Part shown: piece after piece, positions 4,590 to 20,881 of the stretch | How positions within the stretch are numbered: position 1 is the first letter of the stretch | Layout of the letters: every line of letters begins with the position of its first letter | Origin: a virus | Direction: 5' to 3' (one strand) | Length of the DNA: 25,646 nt | IMG/VR virus record: IMGVR_UViG_3300033571_004690 | Location: 1 to 25,646 of that record | The notes under the pieces: generated by a model | The model's database searches: none | Told to the model about the DNA's origin: nothing | What the model saw: the letters and a program-made list of their open reading frames with translations, nothing else | Made by a program: the position numbers and the translations under genes

Positions 4590-5678
4590 GTGATCAAGTT
4601 CAAGAAGATACGCTGGAAGAACTTCCTCTCCACGGGGAACATCTACAGCGAAATGCAGTTGGACAAGACCGAGACCACCTTGGTCCTCGGTGAAAACGGA
4701 GCAGGGAAGTCCACTTTGTTGGACGCTCTCTGCTTCGTTCTTTTCAACAAGCCCTACCGCTCCGTCAACCTCCCGCAGTTGGTCTCCTCGGTCAACGAGA
4801 AGGATTGCGTGGTGGAGATCCACTTCACGGACGGATCCAAGGACTACAAGGTCATCCGTGGACAGTCCCCGAAGGTCTTTGAGATATGGTCGGAGGGCAA
4901 GTTGATCGACCAAGACTCCAAGGCGAGGGACTATCAGAGGATGCTTGAGGACACGATCCTCGGCATGAACTACAAGTCCTTCTGTCAGGTCGTAATCCTC
5001 GGGTCAGCCAACTACATCCCGTTCATGCGCCTACCCGCAGCCGAGCGGAGGTCCGTGGTGGAGTCGATCCTCGACATCGGCGTGTTCTCCACTATGAACA
5101 CCCAACTCAAGGAGCGGATCAGCACCAACAAGGAGGAGTTGCAGCATACGGAGTCAGCCGTCTCGGTGTCCCGTGAGCGTGTGTCCCTGCTCAGGAGGAT
5201 GGTCGAGGAGGAGAAGAAGCGTCAGGAACATGACGATGCTTGGGAAGCGGAGCAGGTAGCCAAGGCGAACGAGGAGATCCGCATCCTGAGGGAGCAGTCG
5301 GCTGAATGCTCCAAGGAGATGTCGCAACTCATGGACTCCATCAAGGACGAGGATGCGGCGAGGAACACAAGGAACAGGTTCAGGGAGATCCACTCGCAGT
5401 TGACCAAGCGTGTCTCCAATTTGGGCAAGGAGATCGCATTCTACGAATCGAACGACACCTGCCCCACCTGCACACAGAAGATCGACCAAGAGTTCAAGGG
5501 TTCAGCCGTAGCCAAGGCGAGGTCTAGGACCGACGAGATGACGAAGGCTCTCTCCGAGGTCGAGGGACACATCGCCTCCACGGAGGAGCGTCTTGAGGAG
5601 ATCTCGGAAGTCCTCTCCCGTGTGCGTGTGCTGAACACGGAGATCATGCGGAAGAACAACGAGATCTCTGCGGTCTAG
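4590..5678 (+). CDS. 46: gp46 recombination nuclease subunit, N-terminal part ending at amber codon 363
   Basis: SbcC/Rad50-type ATPase subunit of the gp46/gp47 complex, which resects DNA ends for recombination-dependent replication. It starts at GTG 4590 (MIKFKKIRWKNFLSTG); no in-frame ATG lies nearby. Walker A is GENGAGKS at residues 34-41, followed by the conserved Q-loop region (FCQVVILGSANYIPFM), a coiled coil, and a zinc hook CPTC at 291-294, then the start of the return coiled coil. At codon 363 (5676-5678) there is a TAG, and the same frame continues with the C-terminal ATPase half to 6284. Read through, the total is 564 codons, close to T4 gp46 (560 aa). So this is either a nonsense mutation or error, a suppressed stop, or a split gene. 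Confidence 0.88.
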   Translation: MIKFKKIRWKNFLSTGNIYSEMQLDKTETTLVLGENGAGKSTLLDALCFVLFNKPYRSVNLPQLVSSVNEKDCVVEIHFTDGSKDYKVIRGQSPKVFEIWSEGKLIDQDSKARDYQRMLEDTILGMNYKSFCQVVILGSANYIPFMRLPAAERRSVVESILDIGVFSTMNTQLKERISTNKEELQHTESAVSVSRERVSLLRRMVEEEKKRQEHDDAWEAEQVAKANEEIRILREQSAECSKEMSQLMDSIKDEDAARNTRNRFREIHSQLTKRVSNLGKEIAFYESNDTCPTCTQKIDQEFKGSAVAKARSRTDEMTKALSEVEGHIASTEERLEEISEVLSRVRVLNTEIMRKNNEISAV

Positions 5679-5711
5679 CGTCAGATCGGCAGCATCGGCA
5701 GGAAGCCCACC

Positions 5712-6284
5712 GTGGAAAGCACCGTGGAGAAGGACCTGTCGGATGCCTTGGTCTCCGAAGAGGAGGCACTCGACGGCAAGCGTGAGTTGGTGGAGGAGCA
5801 GCACTACCTGTCGTTGGCGGCGACCCTCTTGAAGGACAGCGGGATCAAGAGCCGCATCATCAAGAACTACATCCCCGTCATCAACGACACGATCAACAAG
5901 TACCTCACCAAGATGAACTTCTTCGTTGCGTTCCACCTTGACGAGGAGTTCAACGAGACCATCAAGTCGAGGCACCGAGACGAATTCACCTACGCATCGT
6001 TCAGCGAGGGCGAGAAGAAGAAGATCGACCTCGCACTCCTGTTCGCTTGGAGGAGGATCGCAGCGATGAAGAACAGCATCACCACGAACCTCCTGATCCT
6101 TGACGAGATCCTCGACGGAAGCCTTGACGATCAGGGCACGGATGCCTTCCTAGACATCGTCGGTGGGCTCGACAAGGACACGAACACATTCGTCATCAGC
6201 CACAAGCCGAAGGAGATCCTTCAGGACAAGTTCGACAGGACGGTGCAGTTCGTGAAGCGTGGGAACTTCAGCAGGATGGCTTGA
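5712..6284 (+). CDS. 46: gp46 C-terminal part (ABC signature and Walker B), same frame after the amber
   Basis: Continuation of gp46 in the same frame as the upstream part. It contains LKDSGIKSRIIKNYIP, LDEEFNETIKSR, the ABC signature SEGEKKK (from residue 472 of the joined protein), Walker B LLILDEILDG with D505/E506, and the switch histidine in VISHK; all closely match T4 gp46. If translated separately, the GTG at 5712 is a possible start, with AGGAAG about six bases before it (5700-5705). That would give a 190-aa chain able to pair with the N-terminal part, since the Rad50 head is built from both ends. If the TAG is suppressed, this is residues 375-564. It ends in TGA abutting the convergent gene at 6285. 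Confidence 0.85.
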   Translation: MESTVEKDLSDALVSEEEALDGKRELVEEQHYLSLAATLLKDSGIKSRIIKNYIPVINDTINKYLTKMNFFVAFHLDEEFNETIKSRHRDEFTYASFSEGEKKKIDLALLFAWRRIAAMKNSITTNLLILDEILDGSLDDQGTDAFLDIVGGLDKDTNTFVISHKPKEILQDKFDRTVQFVKRGNFSRMA

Positions 6285-12303: not shown

Positions 12304-12540
12304 ATGGACATCGTAATGGATAACGACAAGGACACCAACGCACAGCGGCAGAAGGTTTGGTTGAAGGAAGAGGGCAAGACGGCGGTCGTGCGTAGGGTGG
12401 AAACCCACCCGAACTACGGCAAGCAGTACCTCGTCACGGTTTACAGTTCGACTTGGGGTCCTGAGACCTACTGGGTGAAGGAAGCGAATGTCGAGCAGAT
12501 CGGACACGGTCGATGGCAGTCGGGAAATGGGAGAGGATGA
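12304..12540 (+). CDS. Hypothetical protein, 78 aa
   Basis: ATG 12304 has GAGG seven bases upstream; an in-frame ATG at 12316 is an alternative. After an acidic N-terminus (MDNDKDTN) the protein alternates strands and turns: KVWLKEEGKTAVVRRVE, YLVTVYSSTWGPETYWV, EANVEQIG. This could be a small beta-barrel, but I recognise no family. The stop codon overlaps the next start as TGATG, so the two genes are probably coupled. Confidence 0.65.
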   Translation: MDIVMDNDKDTNAQRQKVWLKEEGKTAVVRRVETHPNYGKQYLVTVYSSTWGPETYWVKEANVEQIGHGRWQSGNGRG

Positions 12541-12830
12541 TGAGCAAGAAGGCACGATCCAAGGCAGCGGGTAAGCGTCCGAACAAGGTTCAAAAGAACT
12601 TGGAGGCTGTCCCTGCACCCACGCCCGAGCCCACGCCCGAGCCCACGCCCGAGCCCACGCCCGAGCCCACGCCCGAGCCCACGCCCACGCCCACGCCCGT
12701 GTGCGCACCCGCACCCACGCCCGAGCCCACGCCCGTGCGTGAGGAGGAAGTGCAGGTCCCTCGCAAGAGTTCGATCATCGATTGGATCAAGCGCAAGTGG
12801 TGGGTGTTCAGGATCTACGGGCAACTGTAA
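12540..12830 (+). CDS. PTPE-repeat protein with basic N-terminus and hydrophobic C-terminus
   Basis: A 96-aa protein. The ATG at 12540 has GGGAG six bases upstream and overlaps the previous stop. Residues 1-24 are strongly basic (MSKKARSKAAGKRPNK). Residues 26-65 are a proline-rich linker with five consecutive PTPE units plus PT and APTPEPT variants. The C-terminus is basic-aromatic (IIDWIKRKWWVFRIYGQL), resembling a membrane-interfacial helix. Pro-Glu/Pro-Thr repeats of this kind form stiff extended spacers, as in TonB. I infer a tether between a basic, perhaps nucleic-acid-binding, end and a membrane or protein surface; no function is known. Confidence 0.7.
   Translation: MSKKARSKAAGKRPNKVQKNLEAVPAPTPEPTPEPTPEPTPEPTPEPTPTPTPVCAPAPTPEPTPVREEEVQVPRKSSIIDWIKRKWWVFRIYGQL
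12618..12737 (+). repeat. 12-bp tandem repeat (CCCACGCCCGAG)n inside the PTPE gene
   Basis: Five perfect head-to-tail copies of CCCACGCCCGAG run from 12618 to 12677. They are followed by three CCCACG half-units and, after a short break, further partial copies to 12737. The unit is a multiple of three, so copy-number change by slippage would lengthen or shorten the protein spacer without breaking the frame. Confidence 0.9.
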
Positions 12831-15480: not shown

Positions 15481-18306
15481 TCATAGGGCAGGTGCCTCGG
15501 CGAACAGCAAGGCACGGTATGTCGGGTCGTTGTTCCTGCTCATCCTCGACATGAGTACCGCCGATCCGCCGCCTCCACCGCCTCCGATGAGGTTCGTTGT
15601 GGGTGCATTGATCATGGAAGAATCCTGCCTGTTTGCTTGGAACTGCGCCATGGAGGTCTGATTTGCAGCCGTGTTGAGGCTTCCCACGGGATACGACTGC
15701 GGCATCGACATGGCGGCGAACTGAACTCCTCCACCCTGACCGCCGATGGGGACAGTCGTAAACGATCCTGGTGCCAAGGGAACCGCCGCCGAGGGCATAC
15801 TCTGCGGGAGGATCGCCACGGAACTCCGCTGCGGAGACTCAAATATGTCCTTGGCTTTCTCGACCTCGGGGGGTGTCTCGGGTGTACCGCCACCCAACGC
15901 AGCCTTGATCGAACTTCCGATGATGGGGAGTTCTCCCAAGGCATCGGCGATGGAGTTGATGATGTCGGTGAAGAACCCGACCAACTTGCCGTGCAGCCAA
16001 GTGCCGAAGTCCAAGAGATCGTCTATCCATACTCCGCTAGTGATCCAATCCCATACCCACATGACTGCGTCTGCCAACATCTTCGGCAGGTCGTAGACGA
16101 AGAACTTCACCAAGTAGAAAGCCGCCTTGATGAGCATGATGGGGATCATTATGAAGGTCTGAACCAACCGACCGACGAGGAACTTGGCGTATGCCAAGAA
16201 CATCTCGACCACCGACTTCAGCACCTTCGATACGAGGCTTCCTCCTCCTTGGAAGATGCCGACGATGTTCTTGAAGGCATCCACGAAGGGCTTGATCATC
16301 ATGTTGTAGGACTGCTTTGCGAAGGTCGCAAAGGTCTCAAACAGACCACCCATCGTCTTGTTGAAGAAGTCAAATATCGTTTGGAAGTTGAGGAGACCGA
16401 ATGTGAGACCGCTGATGATCTGTGCGACGGCTCCCATGATGGCACCCTTGAGTCCCATCTGCTTGAAGCCCTTGAATGCGCCGATCACGCCGTCGATGAG
16501 GGAAATCAGGATTTGGAGCGGGAAGAAGATCTTGGACACAAGACCGAAGCCGAACCGCATGGCACCGAGGATCCTCGGGAAGAAGCCGAGCAGCCTCCCC
16601 ACGAACGGGATCGCCTTCGACATCGCCATGAGACCCTTCTCAAGGAACAGGAACCCCGATCCGAGTTTGCCCATGAAGCCGCCGACACCCGAGCCGATAC
16701 CCGCAAACATCTTCCCGACCACGGGGATGTACTTGGTGATGAAGGTCAGGGCACTCCAAACCATCTTGATGTAGTTGTAGATGTACCCGATGGTGCCGCC
16801 GATCACGACGGCGAGGAGGATGAGAATCGTCTTGAACCAACCGTCCTCCTTCTTGAAGATGTCGCCGAGGAGTTCCTTCATCGACTCGCTCGACTTGATG
16901 TACTCATCGATCATCTTCTGCGCCCATGCGGGAGTGTCGTTCGCAGCCTCGGCTTCACGCTCCGCAGCCTTGACGCTCTCCTGCTTCATGTGGCTGATGG
17001 CGACGAGTTCAGTTTTCTCAAGGGACTTGAATCGGTCGATGGTCTCCTTGTGACGCTTCTGTGCGTCCCTGATCTCTTGGCTGTCGCCCCTCGACTTCAC
17101 CATCGATGTGGCGGCGGCGAGGGAGACCCCCTTCTCCTTCATTATGGTTTCGACCTGCTTCTTGCGGATCTCGTTGAGTTCCCGCTCCTGCTTCACCATC
17201 ATCTGTTGAACGATGGCTGACTTCTTGGACTCAAGGAACTGCTCCTTGTGGGCTTCGATGGCATCGGGGGTAGCGTCGGGGTTCTCCAACGAGTATCGCT
17301 TCATCTCGGCTTCGGTGATGGCATCGATCTGCTCCTTGATCTCGGACAGACCGACGATGCCCCCTTGCGAGATGAACTTCGATGCGAGGACATCGCCTTC
17401 AGCCTCCTTCTTCTGCTGATCGGCGTACTCCTGCGCATACTCTGCCGCCTTCTTCCTGTTCTCTGCCATCTGACTTGCGGCGAGGCGTTCGTTCTCCATC
17501 CGCTTGTCGAAGGCTTGCTTCTCCTTCTTCAGAGCCTCCTCGTAGTTCGCCTTCTTGAGAGCCTCGGCGGCGGCGTTCTCCTCCTGCATCAATTTGTTGA
17601 GACCATCCTCAACGAGTTTGCCCGTTTCCTCGGAGACCCTCTGCTGCATCTCGGCGACGGTAACGCCTATCTGATCCAAGGCGAAAATTGACCTGTCCAA
17701 CGCCGCTTCAAGATCAAGACCAACCCCAAAATTGTAATCGCTGATCTTCTCGCTCATCGCCTTCATCTCGGCGATGCTGTCGCTGCGCTGCTTCGATTCC
17801 GACTCAAGGATTTTCTTGCTCTCCTCAAGCGAGGAGGCATGCTGCATGACCTCTTCTTCCGCAGCCTTCAACTCGGCACTTACGCCAGACAGACCCTCGG
17901 AGAGTTTCTTGTCGTACTCCTCCTTGATCTTCTTGGTGTTCTCGTACCAAGTCCCGTCTTCCTTGCGGTACTTCTTGTACTCCTCCTCTATCTTCTTCCG
18001 CTCGTTCTCCTGCTTCACATACAGACGCTGCTGTCGAATAGCAGCCTCTGCCAACTTGGTGCGGGTCTCCTGCTCCTTCTTCAGGGTCTCGGCAAGGGAG
18101 GCATTCAGTTTTTCGATGGTCTTGTTCAGTTCGTTGTTCTTGTCAACAAACTGATCGAAAGCCTGAGTGATGTCGCTCGGATCGGGGATCGCACTAGCGG
18201 GAGGTGGAGGTGCAGGGTTCGGCTGACCCATCCCCTGATCGTTCAGAGGAGGTCTGCCAGGATTGCCTCCCGATCCCATCGGATTGTTGGTTGATTCTCC
18301 CGCCAT
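15481..18306 (-). CDS. Tape-measure-like tail protein (gp29 position)
   Basis: The largest gene: 941 aa, ATG at 18306 with AAGGA six bases upstream. After a Pro/Gly-rich N-terminus (to about residue 45), residues 45-460 are long charged coiled coil. From about 490 to 790 there are repeated hydrophobic segments (TILILLAVVIGGTIGYIY, FFPLQILISLIDGVIGAF, FIMIPIMLIKAAFYLVKFF). The C-terminal 130 residues are low-complexity with a run of seven glycines near 910. Coiled coil plus membrane-like segments is the classical tape-measure design, and the position after gp26/gp51 supports it. T4's own length-determining protein is gp29 (590 aa); direct homology is not evident to me. Stop TGA at 15481. Confidence 0.75.
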   Translation of the reverse strand: MAGESTNNPMGSGGNPGRPPLNDQGMGQPNPAPPPPASAIPDPSDITQAFDQFVDKNNELNKTIEKLNASLAETLKKEQETRTKLAEAAIRQQRLYVKQENERKKIEEEYKKYRKEDGTWYENTKKIKEEYDKKLSEGLSGVSAELKAAEEEVMQHASSLEESKKILESESKQRSDSIAEMKAMSEKISDYNFGVGLDLEAALDRSIFALDQIGVTVAEMQQRVSEETGKLVEDGLNKLMQEENAAAEALKKANYEEALKKEKQAFDKRMENERLAASQMAENRKKAAEYAQEYADQQKKEAEGDVLASKFISQGGIVGLSEIKEQIDAITEAEMKRYSLENPDATPDAIEAHKEQFLESKKSAIVQQMMVKQERELNEIRKKQVETIMKEKGVSLAAATSMVKSRGDSQEIRDAQKRHKETIDRFKSLEKTELVAISHMKQESVKAAEREAEAANDTPAWAQKMIDEYIKSSESMKELLGDIFKKEDGWFKTILILLAVVIGGTIGYIYNYIKMVWSALTFITKYIPVVGKMFAGIGSGVGGFMGKLGSGFLFLEKGLMAMSKAIPFVGRLLGFFPRILGAMRFGFGLVSKIFFPLQILISLIDGVIGAFKGFKQMGLKGAIMGAVAQIISGLTFGLLNFQTIFDFFNKTMGGLFETFATFAKQSYNMMIKPFVDAFKNIVGIFQGGGSLVSKVLKSVVEMFLAYAKFLVGRLVQTFIMIPIMLIKAAFYLVKFFVYDLPKMLADAVMWVWDWITSGVWIDDLLDFGTWLHGKLVGFFTDIINSIADALGELPIIGSSIKAALGGGTPETPPEVEKAKDIFESPQRSSVAILPQSMPSAAVPLAPGSFTTVPIGGQGGGVQFAAMSMPQSYPVGSLNTAANQTSMAQFQANRQDSSMINAPTTNLIGGGGGGGSAVLMSRMSRNNDPTYRALLFAEAPAL

Positions 18307-18318
18307 GATCGTTCCTTG

Positions 18319-18513
18319 CTAGTGCTGCTGATGCTTCAGCGACTCCATCTTTTCCTTCTCATTCCTCAAGTGTTCCATGAGGAGGTCGATGTAGACCCTC
18401 CGTTCCCACGGCATCATGCCCTCAAGATCGGTCAGCGTGTAGTTGAAGTTCTGCATCATGGCGAAGTTGACCGATAGCATGTTCAGAAGGCTGTCGTGGG
18501 AGGAGGCTATGAG
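18319..18513 (-). CDS. 51: gp51-like baseplate hub assembly protein, in the -1 frame after gp26
   Basis: The 64 residues following the slip (LIASSHDSLLNML ... NFNYTLTDLEGMMPWERRVY ... KEKMESLKHQQH) match the gp51-type small protein of marine T4-like phages, notably the YTLTDLEGMxPWER motif. As a separate gene it would need the ATG at 18480, or a TTG at 18561 inside gp26; neither has a ribosome-binding site. The frame is -1 relative to gp26 and overlaps its end, and a slippery heptamer lies at the overlap. I therefore place translation after a -1 frameshift, giving a 298-aa gp26-gp51 product. In T4, gp51 is separate and catalyses hub assembly. Ends in TAG, 12 bases before the tape-measure ATG. 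Confidence 0.7.
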   Translation of the reverse strand, partial: LIASSHDSLLNMLSVNFAMMQNFNYTLTDLEGMMPWERRVYIDLLMEHLRNEKEKMESLKHQQH

Positions 18514-19214
18514 AAAAAACTTGCGATCCCCTTGAGCATATGCTCGTTGTGGTGCTTGCAAATCGTGCAGTCGAAAGCCAAAGACTTCTCGATTTTGGGC
18601 ATCGTGTCGAGGAAGTCGAACAGTTTCCTGAACTGGTCCTGCGTCATCTGATCGATGAACTCACGGACATCCGTCTCCTGCATCTCCGAGCAGTTGTAGA
18701 CGGTCTCCCCTTGGTTGATCTTGTCGATGCACTTGGTCAGCAGGGCGAAGGTCCTGTCCACATCCGAGCCCTCGCCGAGGGCATCGATGTCCTCAAGGGT
18801 GGGATACCGCATCACGATGCTGATGTCGGCGACGAGCGGGATGACCTTCCTGTGGTTGGGATTCGACTGAGGGGTCAGTTCCTTGATGTTGATCTCGCAC
18901 TCGTTGCCCCCGCCACACTTCTCGCACTTGATCGTCGGCTTGGTGGTCTCGCCGACAGACTGACTGCGGAGTTGGAGGAACAGGTATTCCATGTCTAGGA
19001 GGGGGATCTTGGTCACATCGACCTTGCCTCCCGTGCATGAGAGTACGACCTCCCTGATTGCGCTGTAGATGCTCTTCTCGTTCTTGGTTTCCGCCGCCAT
19101 GAGGAGGATCTTCTCCTCCTTGACGATGAACGGTCGATATTCGACCTTCTTCCCGCTGAGAGGGAGGATGGTCTGATGCTTGGGTACTGATGCGAGGATT
19201 CCGCTGAGGGACAT
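18507..19214 (-). CDS. 26: gp26 baseplate hub protein (T4_baseplate family)
   Basis: A 235-aa protein; ATG 19214 has GGAG nine bases upstream. The N-terminus (TILPLSGKKVEYRPFIVKEEKILLMA) is the family hallmark, followed by a Cys pair (KCEKCGGGNECEI), a middle region (MRYPTLEDID) and a C-terminal Cys/His cluster (FDCTICKHHNEH). The two CxxC elements may form a zinc ribbon. T4 gp26 takes part in hub formation. The gene ends in TAG four bases after a T TTT TTC heptamer, from which ribosomes could shift into the gp51 frame. Its position just upstream of the tape measure mirrors the tail-assembly chaperone of other long-tailed phages. Confidence 0.85.
   Translation of the reverse strand: MSLSGILASVPKHQTILPLSGKKVEYRPFIVKEEKILLMAAETKNEKSIYSAIREVVLSCTGGKVDVTKIPLLDMEYLFLQLRSQSVGETTKPTIKCEKCGGGNECEINIKELTPQSNPNHRKVIPLVADISIVMRYPTLEDIDALGEGSDVDRTFALLTKCIDKINQGETVYNCSEMQETDVREFIDQMTQDQFRKLFDFLDTMPKIEKSLAFDCTICKHHNEHMLKGIASFFS
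18513..18519 (-). other. Slippery heptamer for -1 frameshift, gp26 to gp51
   Basis: On the minus strand the sequence is T TTT TTC in the gp26 frame (codons AGT TTT TTC), an exact X XXY YYZ motif. The gp26 TAG follows after one more codon. A Shine-Dalgarno-like AAGGGG (18528-18533) lies eight bases upstream, as in the dnaX frameshift signal. After a -1 slip the frame runs directly into gp51. No strong downstream hairpin is seen. Confidence 0.65.
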
Positions 19215-19241: not shown

Positions 19242-20276
19242 TCATCCGAAGAAGCCCGCTCCGAAGAACCCTTGGGTCTGCGAGAGCAGGGTCAAGCCGA
19301 GGTCCAATCCGCCTTGGCGTGGGGTTTGGTAAACCACCCTGCCATCGACTGCCCTCGGGAAGTTTTCGTTCTTGTACTCCTCCAACTGCCGAGAGTAAGC
19401 CTCAAGTATGGAACGCTGCTTCCTCTGAAGTTGGTCGAAGTTCGCCCGTTCCCGCATTCCACCGACGATGAAGCCATTGACCGCCTTGTTGAGGTTGAAT
19501 TGGCTCTGCCGCAGGATCTTCTCGTTGGAACTGTTGTCGATGACGGGGAAGCCCGTGTCCGTGATGGTGGGCAGGGTGTTGGTGTAGGTGAGGTTGATTT
19601 CCTTGAGGGGGACCATGTCGTGGTACATCAGTCCGACATCGATGGTCATCGGCTCGGTGCCCGTTCCGTAGTTGAGCGAACCTCCGTTGATGTTCACCCT
19701 GTACGGGTACACCTCGGTCAGGCGCACCCCCGTGATCTTCCCCTGATACATCGCCTCCATAGCCATGTCGAAGTTCCTGACATGCTTGGGGAGGAGCATG
19801 ATGTACACCTCGCTCTCCTTGGCGTAGTCATCGTAGAACCGCCATTGCTTGGTGACGGGGTTCTGCGGGTACGAGTACCAACCGTCGAAGAACTCCTTCT
19901 CAAACAGGTCGGAGCCGCAGTTGAACTGAAACAGCATTCCCGAACTGTTGTTGGTGTTCTTCTTGTAGGGGAACATTCGGTTGGACCCCGCCGTGATGTA
20001 GTTCTCCTCGCTGGTGTACCAACTCTTGTCGTTGATGGTCATCGACTTGCAGGTGGTTGCGAGTCGGGCTACATCGGGGACGAACTCCATCCCGAGTGCC
20101 GAGCGAACACGCTCGTTGGGGAAGATCATCACAAGCCATCGGTTGGCTGACATCCAACCCGTTTCCCGCAGCCGACCGTAGGCATAGTCCATGAAGGACG
20201 GCGCAGGGCTGTCCTTGGATCCCTCTAGGAACCTTGCCCGTGACGAAAGGAAGTCTGTGCGGAAGTCGAGTGCCAT
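19242..20276 (-). CDS. 54: gp54-like baseplate tail-tube initiator
   Basis: About 344 aa from ATG 20276 (MALDFRTDF); the longer frame from 20303 overlaps the previous gene. Visible features: NRWLVMIFPNE near the N-terminus, YSYPQNPVTKQWRFYDDYAKESEVYIMLLPKH, then KITGVRLTEVYPYRVNINGG and EPMTIDVGLMYHDMVP. The last part has the style of tail-tube-like domains shared by gp48, gp54 and gp19 of T4-like phages. Assigned as gp54 rather than gp48 because the gp48-like gene is at 21394; the two could be exchanged. In T4, gp54 binds the gp48 cap and nucleates tube polymerisation. There is no ribosome-binding site, but a CAAATAGATAC box lies just upstream. Confidence 0.65.
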   Translation of the reverse strand: MALDFRTDFLSSRARFLEGSKDSPAPSFMDYAYGRLRETGWMSANRWLVMIFPNERVRSALGMEFVPDVARLATTCKSMTINDKSWYTSEENYITAGSNRMFPYKKNTNNSSGMLFQFNCGSDLFEKEFFDGWYSYPQNPVTKQWRFYDDYAKESEVYIMLLPKHVRNFDMAMEAMYQGKITGVRLTEVYPYRVNINGGSLNYGTGTEPMTIDVGLMYHDMVPLKEINLTYTNTLPTITDTGFPVIDNSSNEKILRQSQFNLNKAVNGFIVGGMRERANFDQLQRKQRSILEAYSRQLEEYKNENFPRAVDGRVVYQTPRQGGLDLGLTLLSQTQGFFGAGFFG

Positions 20277-20280
20277 AGGA

Positions 20281-20291
20281 GTATCTATTTG
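20281..20291 (-). promoter_or_regulatory. CAAATAGATAC box before the gp54-like gene
   Basis: The minus-strand sequence CAAATAGATAC ends four bases before the ATG at 20276 and overlaps the TAG stop of the preceding gene. It is a variant of the late-type CTAAATA box and nearly identical to the AAATAGATAC before the gene at 3960. If it is a promoter, the mRNA would be leaderless. Confidence 0.35.
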
Positions 20292-20881
20292 GCTAACTTC
20301 CACACCTGTTCCCGAGTCGCTCCTTGGAAGTCATCCATGGGGAAGAACGGAACCGTCTTCCACTCGGCAGACGAGATGAAGGCGATGTCGCTGACGATGT
20401 GGCTGTAGAGGTAACGCTTGATGCAGGGGCGGTAGGGCTTGAGTTTCTTGGTCGCCTTCAGTATCGGGTAGGTGACCCTGATGAGTGCCTTGTAGTTGTT
20501 GTAGACAGCCCAATTCGGGTCATCCACCAACTTGATGAGGTTGTTGAGGAAGGTAGCCCGAACGCTCGGCGGGATGTAGTGAAGGTTGAGACCTAGAAAT
20601 CCCTTGGGCTTCGGGTGGAGGATGATGACCACGGGGAACGCATCCCAAAACGGGAGTTCGTCTTGGGTCTTGGGGTCGTATGCGTAGAAGACCATCCTCC
20701 CAGGCGAGAGTTGGTTCCTCTTGGTGATCGTCTTTGACGAGTCGATGAACGAGGACTGCCGCATCCCCGTCTTGATCTTGGAGAGGTTGGTGGCAAGCCA
20801 TTTCGTCGCCTTCGGGTCCTTGAGGCTCAGTCCCGAGCGACCGAAGTCCCGCACCACCTTTGCTGCCGCTTTCTTGGTCAT
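20285..20881 (-). CDS. Conserved T4-like phage protein next to gp4
   Basis: A 198-aa basic protein. The segment GRMVFYAYDPKTQDELPFWDAFPVVIILHPKPKGFLGLNLHYIPP, then a helical region and RYLYSHIVSDIAFISSAEWKTVPFFP, is a pattern I associate with a conserved protein of marine T4-like phages located in the gp4/gp53 neighbourhood. I cannot name its T4 counterpart with confidence; a head-completion or DNA-end role like gp2 is possible by position only. It is coupled to gp4 by an ATGA overlap (20878-20881) and ends in TAG just before the gp54-like gene. Confidence 0.7.
   Translation of the reverse strand: MTKKAAAKVVRDFGRSGLSLKDPKATKWLATNLSKIKTGMRQSSFIDSSKTITKRNQLSPGRMVFYAYDPKTQDELPFWDAFPVVIILHPKPKGFLGLNLHYIPPSVRATFLNNLIKLVDDPNWAVYNNYKALIRVTYPILKATKKLKPYRPCIKRYLYSHIVSDIAFISSAEWKTVPFFPMDDFQGATREQVWKLAK

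Follow-up and report, generated by a model that had tools for sequence, protein, structure and literature searches.

The window analysed in this study, a stretch of 25,646 nt of viral DNA, carries on its minus strand a gp26-like gene that is overlapped at its end by a gp51 reading frame. The question raised by this locus is whether gp26 and gp51 are two genes or one gene read in two frames. A preliminary description of the DNA had proposed a programmed -1 frameshift at the junction. Our analysis favours this reading. With a probability of about 93%, judged from sequence, gp26/gp51 would be a single gene from which a T4-like phage makes its tail assembly chaperones by frameshifting. The comparative support for the frameshift was strong, with 50 of 54 lineages in agreement, and the slippage itself is predicted. 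The features of the region are listed below, all on the minus strand.

19242..20303, minus strand: gene next upstream of gp26, encoding a tail-tube-like protein (weak but significant match to the tail tube family phrog_45, E 4e-5)
18507..19214, minus strand: gp26-like predicted short tail assembly chaperone (TAC-N), 235 aa (PF12322, phrog_150)
18528..18533, minus strand: SD-like AAGGGG, putative -1 stimulator, with an 8-nt spacer to the heptamer and a position conserved across lineages
18513..18519, minus strand: slippery heptamer T TTT TTC in the gp26 phase, an exact X XXY YYZ
18507..18509, minus strand: 0-frame TAG stop of gp26, starting 3 nt past the heptamer
18319..18519, minus strand: -1 frame segment with the gp51 domain (TAC-C), 66 aa when the count starts at the shared FF (phrog_634, E 5e-19)
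15481..18306, minus strand: 941-aa ORF directly after gp51, in the tape-measure position (assigned by position, size and hydropathy only)

The gp26-gp51 junction in the window

The gp26 product matched the PF12322 profile with 198.6 bits (curated cutoff 24.5) and phrog_150 with an E value of 4e-58. The phrog_150 profile spans both parts of the locus. gp26 aligned to its positions 11-232 and the gp51 segment to positions 226-280, which form the C-terminal end of this gp26/T4-gp51 profile. A profile search of solved structures gave no meaningful match. The structure of gp26 was modelled with a pLDDT of 87.7, and among the PDB matches listed by Foldseek the HK97 chaperone gp13 (2ob9_A) had the highest probability (0.51; TM 0.46 by target length, E 1.1). 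Such a weak match is no more than suggestive of a fold kinship between the gp26 model and HK97 gp13 (2ob9).

Read from the window sequence, positions 18533-18507 of the minus strand are AAGGGG ATCGCAAG TTTTTTC TCA TAG, and the gp26-frame codons up to the stop are AAG GGG ATC GCA AGT TTT TTC TCA TAG. The X XXY YYZ motif reported earlier at 18513-18519 is therefore present as T TTT TTC in the gp26 frame, and counting from 18533-18528 gave the reported eight bases between AAGGGG and the motif. The TAG had been placed four bases after the motif. The stop is indeed there, with a true gap of 3 nt, since a count of four already includes the first T of the TAG. Relative to gp26, the gp51 frame is shifted by exactly -1, has no stop through the overlap and terminates at 18319, as had been described. 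The predicted slip product was recomputed as 232 + 66 residues, which reproduced the earlier figure of 298 aa.

Based on the codon usage of the window itself, in which TTT accounts for 14% of Phe codons and T-ending codons for 12% of Ser codons, Ser-Phe-Phe would be written as NNT TTT TTY by chance with p of about 0.016. No second in-frame T TTT TT was found in the 17 window genes scanned.

The 941-aa ORF contains four hydrophobic segments. A family search with it gave no match, and it is a candidate tape measure protein. In P-SSM4 (locus L081, 3892-6690) the long ORF in the tape-measure position matched phrog_790, which is labelled endolysin, and in S-SCSM1 (locus L096, 5379-8231) the corresponding ORF is annotated as lysozyme. 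These two ORFs are possibly tape measure proteins with a lytic domain. Elsewhere in the window, a gp46-like recombination nuclease gene (4590-6284, plus strand) contains an in-frame TAG at 5676-5678. Contig L215, from a close relative, reads a sense codon at this place, and the TAG is therefore either a nonsense point mutation or an error of the assembly. A small ORF at 12513-12830 (plus strand) encodes tandem repeats of the PTPE type, as is typical of linkers that vary in length.

Conservation of the junction among relatives

Viral contigs and annotated phages were scanned for the locus. This yielded 197 usable locus entries, duplicates included, corresponding to 142 distinct sequences that clustered into 54 lineages at 70% gp26 identity. 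Comparison of the junction in related phages had been suggested as a check on the frameshift. T TTT TTN was present at exactly this place at the end of gp26 in 51 of the 54 lineages, followed after T TTT TT by C in 36, T in 14 and G in one. The heptamer lineages include Kyanoviridae, KVP40 and phages of Aeromonas, Cronobacter, Rhizobium, Ochrobactrum, Stenotrophomonas and Desulfovibrio. gp51 lay in the -1 frame in 50 of these 51, the exception being S-SCSM1. The pattern that had been named as speaking against the frameshift, a gp51 in another frame or with a start of its own where the slippery run is absent, does not hold in 50 of the 54 lineages. The gap between heptamer and stop was 3 nt in 39 heptamer lineages and 0 nt in seven.

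The first Phe codon of the heptamer was TTT in all 51 lineages, and the codon before it always ended in T. As a control, a conserved Phe elsewhere in gp26 was examined, which was encoded by TTT in 27 cases and by TTC in 15. If the lineages were independent, the summed codon probability would be about 1e-28; the lineages share ancestry and this value is overstated. Despite the kinship, the contrast between the TTT bias at the heptamer and the control Phe is plain. Since the heptamer is conserved across lineages, a chance run of T can be ruled out.

The same data bear on the idea that a single fused gene only looks broken because of an error in sequencing or assembly. Single-base errors do occur here. 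Stenotrophomonas phage IME-SM1 (L090) has five T's, one fewer than its sister phages, among them Mendera with the canonical GAT TTT TTC GGC TGA. The missing T, probably a sequencing error, has wrongly extended the gp26 annotation of IME-SM1. In contrast, dozens of lineages with independent assemblies show the identical break, as do finished phage genomes. An error as the general cause is refuted by these independent lineages, and we give it a negligible probability.

Exceptions were found. In S-SCSM1 (L096, 5150-5230) the heptamer is intact and the gp51 domain lies in the +1 frame. Its nearest relatives, S-SM2 and SynMITS9220M01, have the canonical junction, and for this reason the break in S-SCSM1 is read as an isolated indel, perhaps a sequencing error. 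The three lineages without heptamer belong to the Ackermannviridae (junction ATT TTC ATY TAA) and to Vibrio phage K493 (CTT TTC AAG TAA), and gp51 is still in the -1 frame in them. A TAATG was observed in some of these heptamer-less loci (L083, L094, L091 and L192-L209). Another slip signal or coupled initiation may operate in these phages.

Initiation, slippage and stimulatory elements

A separate gp51 could be translated from a start of its own, coupled to gp26 termination, with the T run being incidental. gp51 is annotated as a separate gene in database records, an ATG in the -1 frame occurs at or before +24 in 12 lineages, and TAATG or TGATG overlaps in seven lineages, including KVP40, EniLVp02, RHph_I46 and Mendera, make coupled initiation possible there. 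In the window, in contrast, the first ATG of the gp51 frame lies 39 nt past the heptamer start, already inside the conserved domain. The sole upstream candidate, a TTG at 18561, has no recognisable SD, which bears out the earlier statement that gp51 has no start codon with a ribosome-binding site. No -1 frame start was present up to +24 in 34 of the 51 heptamer lineages. In 20 lineages the -1 frame is also closed by a stop within the 12 nt that precede the heptamer, and ATG, GTG and TTG are all absent before +24, so canonical initiation cannot yield the whole gp51 domain. Independent initiation also leaves the invariant heptamer unexplained. Based on the start-codon scan it was rejected for the window and for most lineages, and as an account of the locus it is very improbable. 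Under the frameshift reading, many database entries split one frameshifting gene in two or call gp51 with an unsupported start.

The long form could also arise from slippage of RNA polymerase on the T run, giving mRNAs with an extra or a missing base. The site is a homopolymer, and runs of seven to eight T are found in a few lineages. Six T's are short for transcriptional slippage, and the run is kept at six T followed by C in most lineages. Moreover, the heptamer is phased with the 0 frame and an SD-like element lies 9-10 nt upstream of it, both of which are marks of ribosomal -1 frameshifting. We consider polymerase slippage highly improbable, even more so than a separate start.

The putative upstream stimulator of ribosomal frameshifting was evaluated over the lineages. 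Anti-SD pairing energy showed a single sharp peak, whose G core at -12 to -10 corresponds to a distance of 9-10 nt from the heptamer. The mean pairing energy was -6.3 kcal/mol at the junction versus -4.8 kcal/mol in synonymous-codon shuffles (Wilcoxon p 1e-7, a value that overstates the difference because the lineages are related). Pairing in the rest of the gene was weaker (-1.5), and an SD 4-mer was present upstream of the heptamer in 40 of 51 lineages. For the window alone the excess over shuffles did not reach significance (p 0.31), because the Lys-Gly pair already tends to be written as an SD-like sequence. Among the accepted stimulators of -1 frameshifting in prokaryotes are SD-like elements (PMC4066793), with an optimal spacing of 9-14 nt (PMC5009743). 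Set against this range, the lineage peak lies at 9-10 nt and the window, by strict count, at 8 nt.

Downstream RNA structure was also addressed. None was found in the window (z +0.6), and no consensus structure common to the lineages was detected; folding over the lineages had a mean z of -1.3 at positions that were not conserved. A downstream stimulatory structure is optional in bacterial -1 frameshifting (PMC4066793), and its lack therefore does not bar the junction from this class. As a tentative and rather doubtful generalisation, the SD-like element 9-10 nt upstream and the stop 3 nt downstream might drive the shift across T4-like phages in place of an RNA structure, and some of the TAATG/TGATG lineages might in addition make a free gp51 domain.

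Sequence, frame, conservation and domain homology at the gp26-gp51 junction are direct results; slippage, its efficiency and chaperone action we infer as follows. The majority of ribosomes would stop at the TAG and give the 235-aa short form. A minority would be held back, probably by pairing of AAGGGG with the 16S anti-SD, and would slip by -1 on T TTT TTC, with the Phe-tRNAs of the P-site and A-site re-pairing on TTT TTT. Slipped ribosomes would then produce the 298-aa long form with the gp51 domain. If the lambda model carries over, the N-terminal part common to both forms may coat the tape measure protein, and the gp51 domain may recruit tail tube subunits.

Comparison with known systems

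The abstract of a study on T4-like phages by Vladimirov and colleagues reportedly mentions genes 26 and 51 by name and describes frameshifting in several groups of these phages. According to papers that cite it, this study identified the tail chaperone genes of T4-like phages (Vladimirov, Gautam & Davidson, Virology 2022). The PRFect paper cites it for T4-like phages with a short gene and a long fused gene (PMC10885494), and the phage Adele paper for poly-T -1 frameshift signals in T4-like TAC-N genes (PMC12846349). As far as these sources go, the published chaperones belong to the same protein families and follow the same logic as the pair in the window. The belief expressed in the preliminary description, that the T4-lineage pair was undescribed, was thus mistaken, judged from the papers that cite the 2022 publication. 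A literature search for the gp26/gp51 frameshift by gene name retrieved only unrelated phages. The window phage represents an uncultured lineage, probably outside the coverage of Vladimirov et al. With it, the rule of a short and a long tail chaperone produced through -1 frameshifting in long-tailed phages would extend to uncultured T4-like viruses.

The -1 site of E. coli dnaX has a 3' stem-loop alongside its SD-like stimulator. No stem-loop was seen in the window, and in this the two sites differ. They are alike in the homopolymeric heptamer and in an SD-like stimulator about 10 nt upstream (PMC5009743 and general background).

The locus has the features of a frameshifting chaperone gene, namely a short ORF, an overlapping startless -1 ORF and a slippery site near the end that is kept in relatives. 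Like lambda G/GT, it combines a short chaperone with a predicted rare -1 frameshift extension and lies between a tail-tube-like gene and a candidate tape measure ORF. The order tail tube-like gene, gp26, gp51 and 941-aa ORF resembles lambda V-G-T-H. The slippery sequence and the protein sizes differ from those of lambda, and an SD-like element is found in the present set. The equation of gp26/gp51 with the lambda pair made in the preliminary description is strongly supported by the comparative evidence, and gp26 and gp26-51 are very probably T4-lineage tail assembly chaperones of the G/GT kind.

T4 itself was still listed as an exception among long-tailed phages in a 2016 review (PMC5009743), and its gp26 and gp51 have been listed as hub assembly chaperones (PMC3004832). 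T4 gp26 matched PF12322 only. T4 gp51, in contrast, matched PF12322 and, at its C-terminus, phrog_634, and phrog_150 covered it end to end. T4 gp51 and the predicted slip product also aligned colinearly across the junction (...VFKLLVNPDE... versus ...FFLIASSHDS...). Judged from these sequences, T4 gp26 is the predicted counterpart of the short form, and T4 gp51 a single ORF of gp26-like and gp51 domains. This is direct domain evidence that T4 gp51 corresponds to the long form fused into one gene. The earlier statement that 26 and 51 are separate genes in T4 is correct, as they lie on opposite strands; the frame called gp51 in the window corresponds only to the C-terminal domain of T4 gp51. T4 has a separate gene for each of the two forms and uses no frameshift, whereas the window phage is predicted to make both from one gene by frameshifting.
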